The translations under genes were made by a program, and so were the position numbers. From contig CAJNOJ010000392.1 of assembly GCA_905250025.1 (NCBI GenBank), forward strand, positions 19,242 to 83,241: a stretch of DNA of 64,000 nt, written 5' to 3'. Origin of the DNA: Adineta ricciae. Its lineage: Eukaryota > Rotifera > Eurotatoria > Adinetida > Adinetidae. Below, piece by piece: positions 1,034-2,981 of this stretch. Under the pieces are notes generated by a model. That model worked only from the letters and a program-made list of their open reading frames with translations. It did no database searches and was not told the origin of the DNA. The number at the start of each line of letters is the position of its first letter. The first letter of the stretch is position 1.

Positions 1034-2981
1034 TTATTCGGTTTTTACACGTTTCGCGCTTTCTTGATTATCGTCAGTAGTCGAGTTGGATCGTTTTGTC
1101 GTTTTGAACATCTCTTCAAGATAAGCCAAACGCTTACTTTGTTCTTTGACTTTGTTCTCCAGATTGATCCATTCTGCTTTCGGACGCGTGATCATATTTT
1201 GATTATCATCGTTATCATCGTCCATATCATCATCGAATGTCAGACCTTTGTTTTTATCTTTGACTAATAAACTATCGATTGTTGTTGGTGAAACAGGCTC
1301 TTCGGCTTCGATCAGTTCGCGAGTATCGAGAGGTTCTTCTTCGTCCGCTTCCTTTGCATTGGTCTTCGGTGGATGAGAATAAGTAGCTAAATGAATTGAA
1401 CTTGTTCGATAGCACTTAGCACCGAATGTACATGGCGGTTTCGTAGTGGATTCCGGTTCTGCCGTTTTTGTAGGCTTAGGAGTGGATGATGGATGCTGAA
1501 ATTGTTTGAGATGGTCAGCATTTGTTCGATAGCATTTTGCTCCGAATTTACACGTCGGTCGGGTGTCACTAGTTTTTGTCGATGATGATGAAGCTGCTTC
1601 TTCATCTTCGTCGTCCGATGTTACGATTTTCTTGCCACTGTTTGCATCACGTGATGGAATAACGGAAAACAAGACGGAGTGTTGTTTCGATAGTTTGGCC
1701 GATGGAATAATCTTTTGCTGAATACTCATCGGCTTTTTTGTTTTAGCTGCTTCAAGTACATCGTTCCAGGCGAGATCGGTACGAACACGCAGAAAAGTGG
1801 GAAATCGTGGATGACCATTGTTGGATAGTTCTTGAAATTTGAATGTAATCACTGAGCCAATTTTTGGTGGTTTTCGCCGTTGATCCATATTGAGTCCACT
1901 GCCCACATCAAATCGTTTTCCATTAGGTAATTCACATTCCAGAGCACCGGTCATACCAATTAAACTTTTGCTCGGTTTATGACCAATGACAAGTGCTTCT
2001 AAAAAAATGAATACTTGCTTAAGACAAAACTTTCTTCATCAAAAAATAACACTTTTTACCTTCATCATAAAATGTTTTCACTTTAAGTAATGTAGTCGAT
2101 CGTTTATGTTCATACAGACTGCCTGGCTTTCGAAGCATGATACCTTCCCCACCAGCTGTATTGATATCGGCCAAGTACTGTTTCAATTGTGCGATACCTT
2201 CACATTTTTTAATACCAACTACTGTCGCATAGCATTTATCATCATCCTGTGGAATATTTGCTTGTAACCATTTGACCCGATCTTCGTATTTCCCTCCATG
2301 AGTTGGAGCATCGAAAATCAAGTATGTTAAGAGTTTGTAATCATCAGGCACGACTTTATTTGCTTGTTTTTTCACGATGCTAACACATTTTTGAAACAAA
2401 CCTCGACCGCACCTGAAAGAACAACTAAAGGTAGAACTCCATGGATGTGCAAAAAAACAGAAATCTACCATATTTCACCATCGAGTGGAACTTTGGGAAG
2501 TGCAGCTTTAAAGAAATCAGGTGTATGAAAAAGATTTCCTTGTCGTGAATAAAAATTCTTGCCATTCCAGTATGCCCTACAAAAGAAAACCTCCACTACT
2601 TGTACTTTTTTTTTCAAATTAATTCCATACCGAACGCCGTCAAGCTTTTCACTCATCCACCATCCCGTTGGATCAACATCTTCAGTCCATGTTTCAGCAA
2701 GGAGAACTTTAGCTGCTTCGCTACACATTATTGCAAAAATACTGTTCAAACGAGTGTTTTTTTGTGACAAAACTAACTCACCTTCAATGTATATATAGTT
2801 ATTTTTTAGAGCAACATCAACACGTTCTTGCAATCTTGTGGTGTAAGTACAAATCACAGAACAGAACAGAACAAAACGTAAAAAATTCCGCCTACGCAAC
2901 ATGAGGAAAGACATGCGCGACGATACCTTGAATCGAGTTCTTTCTATTAATCAACGAAAATTGTACATCGAATGTGCTCAT
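1034..2981 (-). CDS. LigE: ATP-dependent DNA ligase E/K-type with two PBZ zinc fingers
   Basis: Six exons rebuild a 536-residue ORF: 2981-2927, 2826-2782, 2715-2631, 2576-2469, 2412-2060, 1998-1034. The exon 2-3 acceptor could be 3 nt further on. The protein seals DNA nicks through a lysyl-AMP intermediate. Visible motifs are I SEKLDGVR (nucleophile K57), RAYWNGK and FYSRQGN, III YLIFDAP (about 128-134), IV GGEGIMLRKP (about 185) and V LLKVKTF (about 206), followed by an OB domain with GALECELPNGKRFDVGSG. This arrangement matches compact bacterial LigE and kinetoplastid LigK, not animal ligases I, III or IV. Unlike bacterial LigE, it has two PAR-binding PBZ fingers (about residues 365-385 and 405-425, CxFGxxCYR...H...H), an acidic linker, a predicted helical stretch and a terminal basic KRVK motif that suggests nuclear entry. 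A bdelloid ligase E of prokaryotic origin, strongly induced by radiation, is known; this is likely its orthologue. Weakest point: the first two exons. Confidence 0.88.

Follow-up and report, generated by a model that had tools for sequence, protein, structure and literature searches.

DNA ligases with C-terminal PBZ zinc fingers have been described in bdelloid rotifers, and the combination of LigE with PBZ in these animals is therefore already known (PMC10665377 and the accessible text of PMC6264785). Hecox-Lea and Mark Welch in 2018 described the bdelloid enzyme as a ligase K with C-terminal PBZ (PMC6264785, accessible text), and Nicolas et al. in 2023 named it LigE (PMC10665377). In the available parts of the latter article, all bdelloid ligase E genes carry either one finger (LigE-A) or two (LigE-B). 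LigE-B is nuclear and X-ray-induced in both Adineta vaga and A. ricciae, its depletion cuts ligation 1.6-fold, and ligase activity was shown for the A. vaga B copy (PMC10665377); these data confirm the radiation induction that a reading of the present DNA from its sequence only (the sequence-only reading) had cited as known. The accessible part of PMC10809525 places rotifer LigE among the most strongly radiation-induced genes, with a log2 fold change of 7.32 after desiccation and X-rays. In human cells, bdelloid ligase E improves radiation survival, with one-finger A exceeding two-finger B both in ligation (5.4-fold vs. 1.9-fold) and in survival at higher dose (2.8-fold vs. 1.7-fold) (PMC10665377). 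Reading of poly(ADP-ribose) (PAR) is implied in both papers, for PMC6264785 in its accessible text; a test of PAR binding or of PARP-dependent recruitment was found neither in that text nor in the Results and Discussion of PMC10665377, whose main text does not use the words olaparib, PARP inhibitor, PAR binding, laser or micro-irradiation.

We analysed a stretch of 64,000 nucleotides from A. ricciae (the window), which contains a ligase gene of this kind. Its product shares with A. vaga LigE-B (formerly LigK ohnolog B; PMC10665377 and the accessible text of PMC6264785) an N-terminal LigE core, two PBZ fingers behind it, and a one-finger A paralogue, the architecture being the same when compared by published description rather than by sequence alignment. 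The gene matters as a strongly radiation-induced ligase of an extreme animal, going by the partly accessible expression reports, and the candidate PAR reading by its fingers is easily testable.

Gene model and domains of the window copy

The ligase gene has four exons and encodes a 507-aa protein on the minus strand, where all motifs named in the sequence-only reading lie (Table 1). Its three introns (GT..AG; 54, 56 and 61 bases) occur at the same positions in the other allele and in a one-finger paralogue. The start ATG at 2728 is conserved in the second allele (contig C78), whereas an upstream ATG at 2914 is absent there, leaving 2729-2981 unsupported as coding; the originally proposed span of 1034..2981 thus holds for 2728-1034 and extends too far at its outer edge. 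The OB domain and both PBZ fingers are encoded by the same exon, so exon skipping cannot split them, and a tail exon outside the ligase mRNA, which had been raised as an objection to the fusion, is unlikely. The window also contains a Mediator Med8 gene and a glutamate-receptor-type channel; together with the three introns, these neighbours indicate an animal chromosomal gene and no bacterial contaminant.

Table 1 Features of the ligase gene in the window and of the bacterial fusion locus (aa, residues of the encoded protein; L213 is L039 again).
Feature	Position	Strand	Support
DNA ligase E gene, two-finger (B-type) copy	1034..2728	-	exons 2728-2631, 2576-2469, 2412-2060, 1998-1034
ATP-dependent DNA ligase (adenylation) domain, aa 16-181	2076..2683	-	PF01068; alignment with 4d05, 8u6x
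LigE-type OB domain, aa 201-259	1781..1957	-	PF14743, 88.0 bits
Linker, aa 262-331	1565..1774	-	paralogue comparison, genome and structure searches
PBZ finger 1, aa 333-357, CKFGAKCYR...H...H	1487..1561	-	PF10283, 49.7 bits
PBZ finger 2, aa 373-398, CTFGAKCYR...H...H	1364..1441	-	PF10283, 44.8 bits
Acidic stretch GLTFDDDMDDDNDDN, aa 438-452	1202..1246	-	sequence
Possible short coiled coil, aa 458-484	1106..1186	-	by eye; inference
Basic C-terminus KRVKTE, aa 502-507, possible nuclear localisation signal	1037..1054	-	by eye; inference
LigE-PARP fusion frame, then macrodomain gene	L039 2207-5101; L213 5528-9160		Pfam

Pfam analysis of the whole protein gave PF01068 at 40.0 bits (cut-off 26.2), PF14743 at 88.0 bits (cut-off 28) and PF10283 at 79.8 bits in two stretches (cut-off 22.7), and NCBIfam PRK09125 scored 296.5 bits (cut-off 200). 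The compact ligase core recognised earlier from its motifs is thereby borne out, as are the two CxFGxxCYR...H...H fingers, each of which exceeds the PF10283 cut-off and belongs to the PBZ family. SEKLDGVR (aa 26-33) lies within the adenylation domain, whose coding stretch is interrupted by two introns. Among solved structures, the core aligned with 4d05 (7.4e-52), 8u6x (2.6e-48) and 6gdr (9.5e-46), which are listed as DNA ligase and which we take to be LigE-type ligases, and more distantly with PBCV-1 ligase (4.6e-13); this ranking, with both core families above their cut-offs, assigns the protein to DNA ligase E/K. The tail was nearest to human APLF in this comparison. Pfam found no WGR domain (PF05406) in it at E values up to 1, placing it outside the WGR-bearing LigE, and the linker matched nothing in the genome beyond the paralogue and nothing among solved structures. 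The acidic stretch and basic C-terminus reported in the sequence-only reading are both present, each as a sequence feature without family-model support. The possible coiled coil is unaligned in the one-finger paralogue, whose C-terminus reads KRAKKS in place of KRVKTE.

Human APLF, a non-ligase protein, likewise carries a pair of CYR-bearing PBZ fingers spaced at about 40 residues (2kqb, 2kuo). Searched alone, the tail matched this tandem PBZ in one stretch across both fingers (2kuo, 4e-10; 2kqb, 4.1e-10), and the domain and APLF-alignment scores exclude chance resemblance. Neither allele has lost a C or H ligand or the CYR motif from either finger; in APLF, the Tyr and Arg of this motif contact PAR (PMC6264785, accessible text). 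The window protein differs from human APLF at the first aromatic residue, Tyr381/Tyr423 in APLF and Phe in both window fingers. Derivation of the tail from APLF was considered; the window fingers are identical at 14-15 of 26 residues to the nearest HPF1-like or APLF-like fingers of the genome and at 14 of 26 to each other, and alignments of this kind are too short for a decision.

Relatives and origin of the ligase core

Scanning prokaryote genomes with the rotifer core yielded at least 568 confirmed relatives. The best 80 of these at least 568 (L021-L100) include many from Planctomycetota, Myxococcota and Verrucomicrobiota and reach 54% identity over the core. We ran Pfam on these 80 from the core match through the stop codon and found ten families. 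All 80 shared PF01068 and PF14743 with the rotifer protein; behind this core, 41/80 carried a C-terminal WGR domain (PF05406) and one carried PARP catalytic and PARP_reg domains, whereas PBZ was found in 0/80. A simple script pattern gave 38/80 for WGR in the same set, and the Pfam count is preferred. The earlier statement that bacterial LigE lacks PBZ therefore stands for the best 80 of at least 568, in which N-terminal stretches also matched no family (0/79); a pattern search behind the core detected nothing PBZ-like in these 80 or in 77 viral-contig relatives.

The WGR domain occupies the place taken by the linker and fingers in the rotifer protein. When seven bacterial LigE were scanned singly, six showed WGR behind the OB domain without a PARP domain, WGR occurring three times in one of them and five times in another; the seventh was a LigE-PARP fusion (L039). 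Blastopirellula marina LigE (L031) has WGR. In the accessible parts of the PARP literature, WGR is described as essential for DNA binding of PARP1-3 and, in PARP2, as recognising DNA breaks. A further difference from the rotifer protein, which lacks it, is an N-terminal CxC..CxH stretch, present by pattern in 73/80 of the same best 80; identification as a SWIM zinc finger was not upheld by Pfam (0/79 stretches), and the stretch is SWIM-like by motif only.

These results connect the LigE family with PARP-type modules in organisms other than animals as well. They bear on the idea in the sequence-only reading that a plain ligase gained PAR-readers and so joined PARP signalling: the LigE core, the two PBZ fingers and the lack of PBZ in the best 80 of at least 568 bacterial relatives agree with it, but the account is incomplete because 41 of those 80 carry WGR and one a PARP.

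We constructed a quick maximum-likelihood tree of the core with 154 rows (2 rotifer, 2 solved, the 80 bacterial, being the best of at least 568, and 70 of the 77 viral-contig sequences), in which the rotifer pair were the only eukaryotic LigE and from which seven viral-contig rows shorter than 225 residues were excluded. The two rotifer copies were paired with a star, their shared stem measured 1.71, and they joined an unresolved fork together with L166, a viral-contig ligase, and 45 grouped rows; this position carries a long-branch warning. The phylogeny with bacterial LigE proposed in the sequence-only reading thus pairs the rotifer copies and gives them no supported nesting among bacteria, so it does not demonstrate a bacterial donor or an ancestor with WGR. 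The nearest relative of bdelloid LigE is reported to be a non-animal eukaryote, and the LigE of Mortierella and Thecamonas also carry C-terminal PBZ (PMC10665377). Planoprotostelium, Saccoglossus, Lottia, Biomphalaria and Capitella are named there as further eukaryotes with LigE. Given this report and the unplaced rotifer pair, direct transfer from bacteria is unproven.

The viral-contig relatives (L101-L177) include several on contigs longer than 300 kb, and 16/77 have the N-terminal CxC..CxH. The LigE of L060, whose record title gives a Klebsiella pneumoniae metagenome assembly, falls at an open fork with Planctomycetota rows around it; the record is perhaps a mislabelled bin.

A LigE-PARP fusion in one metagenome assembly

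The L039 fusion, found in a Thermoanaerobaculia metagenome assembly on a contig of 104,756 bases, reads through 964 residues in one open frame, in the order SWIM-like motif, LigE, WGR, PARP_reg and PARP catalytic domain, followed downstream by a macrodomain gene (PF01661). In its protein (P0001), the motifs LLFHG, GIYF and DEYVVY presumably mark the sites of the PARP triad at H848, Y887 and E956. These residues fit the H, Y, E catalytic triad given in the accessible text of the 2018 bacterial PARP survey (PMC5966428). The PARP-macrodomain pair occurs without the ligase in four more genomes, three Myxococcota and one Planctomycetota (L205, L207, L208, L209), and thus at 5/5 loci with the near PARP type, the fusion locus (L213) included. 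This recurrence indicates that the surroundings of the PARP half are the normal ones and that the ligase half was added at its front.

The fusion is a single case, resting on one metagenome assembly. Protein queries were used to look for the PARP and the fusion in further genomes, with no more than three or four candidates scored in each. Among 396 genomes of the same phylum, only the one that contains L039 matched its WGR-PARP part. PARP family matches were obtained in two more phyla (8/195 and 4/392 genomes); the ligase part was absent from those PARP loci (L185-L202, flanks of about 1.5 kb) and from ten wider stretches around them, covering 8/12 genomes (L203-L212). In two further phyla, the PARP-protein search returned one distant match in 386 genomes and none in 367, an empty outcome that is uninformative given the lack of a known positive. 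Besides the fusion's own genome, 13 had a PARP match; leaving out three with weak matches, 6 of the 10 others also encode a LigE core, 5 of these 6 with a match into WGR or an adjoining WGR, from which no association is concluded, there being no background rate.

The link between LigE and PARP-type modules in bacteria is likely new. No title or abstract among the open-licence papers listed describes a LigE-WGR or LigE-PARP link, and the word "ligase" does not occur in the main text of PMC5966428 as far as it was accessible. The main text of PMC10665377 lacks the words WGR and SWIM, and that of PMC6264785 lacks WGR; according to their accessible parts, both articles show domain models in figures, one of them of Blastopirellula marina.

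The bacterial link suggests a wider LigE-PARP partnership. We tentatively propose, as one possibility that we hold to be less than even, that LigE is an old partner of PARP systems, in cis in bacteria (through WGR, and once through a full PARP with a downstream macrodomain gene) and in trans in bdelloids, Mortierella and Thecamonas, where a PARP would sense the nick and write PAR and the ligase would read it via PBZ. If LigE is indeed coupled to PARP-type modules in both bacteria and eukaryotes, nick sensing would be coupled to sealing beyond the PARP pathway of animals, and the fusion would offer a compact model, made of one chain, for the repair of single-strand breaks. More boldly, the PARP part of the fusion may attach ADP-ribose as a cap to the 5' phosphate at a nick, and the ligase part may take this as an activated end, making an NAD-driven nick sealer; ADP-ribose seems to let ATP-dependent ligases join single-strand breaks without ATP (PMC8053099, accessible part).

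Alleles, paralogues and the role of the fingers

We searched the genome (130.5 Mb, 1033 contigs) and found three LigE loci: the window copy (C392), its allele on C78, with 98% identity across aa 69-507, and a paralogue of 453 residues (C28). The first two encode two fingers and the paralogue one. Window copy and paralogue are identical at 214/261 core positions, at 50/69 aligned linker positions and at 30/74 in the rest of the tail, and finger 1 is conserved (20/24 positions identical, or 20/26 in a second comparison). Between the alleles, simple counting of synonymous and non-synonymous differences gave 25:1 for the core, 4:2 for the linker, 4:2 for the two fingers (small counts) and 7:2 for the rest of the tail, the latter on about 65 synonymous and 265 non-synonymous sites; the tail thus looks to be under constraint. 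The one-finger A occupies a single locus, compared with two for the two-finger copy, and its second allele is perhaps missing or collapsed in the assembly. A degenerate second finger (HCNFKSKRTRG) in the one-finger paralogue was considered and proved no better than shuffles, 1093/5000 of which reached its score; if real, it would contradict the preference for repeat expansion or contraction in the accessible text of PMC6264785. The same genome encodes PARP, APLF-like and HPF1-like genes, with exon-level matches numbering 125 for the PARP catalytic family and 34 for PBZ.

The window gene probably encodes a functional ATP-dependent, nick-sealing LigE, the bdelloid B copy, whose tandem PBZ most likely holds the enzyme on PAR-marked chromatin at breaks. 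PARPs would mark chromatin at strand breaks with PAR, the tandem tail would retain LigE-B on this freshly marked chromatin, as that of APLF does, and LigE-B would then seal the nick at the expense of ATP. The domain scores, the intact ligands and CYR motifs, the constraint between alleles, the retention of finger 1, the PARP and PBZ genes of the genome and the published data on the B copy all argue for this PAR-holding function. The tail would bind PAR and bring the ligase to breaks, and a second finger may add some advantage over a single one. The Phe at the first aromatic position of both fingers counts against it, an objection softened by the occurrence of Y423F in APLF of some other animals (PMC6264785, accessible text). 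The PAR-reading mechanism is plausible for rotifer LigE-B, although the better performance of one-finger A in human cells (PMC10665377) speaks against a simple model in which fingers equal recruitment.

That same Phe substitution would also fit fingers that serve chiefly as a docking platform for repair proteins or as chromatin or DNA binders, with PAR minor and the proline-serine-threonine-rich acidic tail holding chromatin. Docking and chromatin binding by PST repeats, a close variant, were proposed in the 2023 discussion (PMC10665377), and the identity retained between paralogues in the non-finger linker, set against that of the core, is in line with such a role; the intact ligands and CYR motifs of both fingers in both alleles and the one-stretch match of the pair to the APLF tandem PBZ weigh against it, and we consider it rather unlikely. 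Still less probable, to the point of being improbable, is a tail that is a passive relic of a ligase working through sheer abundance upon induction, without targeting. The human-cell advantage of one-finger A (PMC10665377) and the varying finger number between paralogues could be read this way, but few protein changes separate the alleles in the remainder of the tail, finger 1 has been kept between old paralogues (20/26), and the one-finger A and two-finger B pattern extends to all bdelloid ligase E genes in the available parts of PMC10665377.

The search also located an APLF-like tandem-PBZ gene adjoining an HPF1-like gene on the opposite strand, at about 4021-6540 of L012 (C110) and about 3836-6274 of L013 (C84). 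The HPF1-like neighbour scored 63.6 bits for PF10228 (scanned on C110 only) and has a PBZ finger of its own, so that a PAR reader lies next to a PARP cofactor. Two similar open frames at 3651-5911 of L017 (C124) encode divergent PBZ-like fingers of the form CRDGRSCRD...H...H, without the CYR motif.
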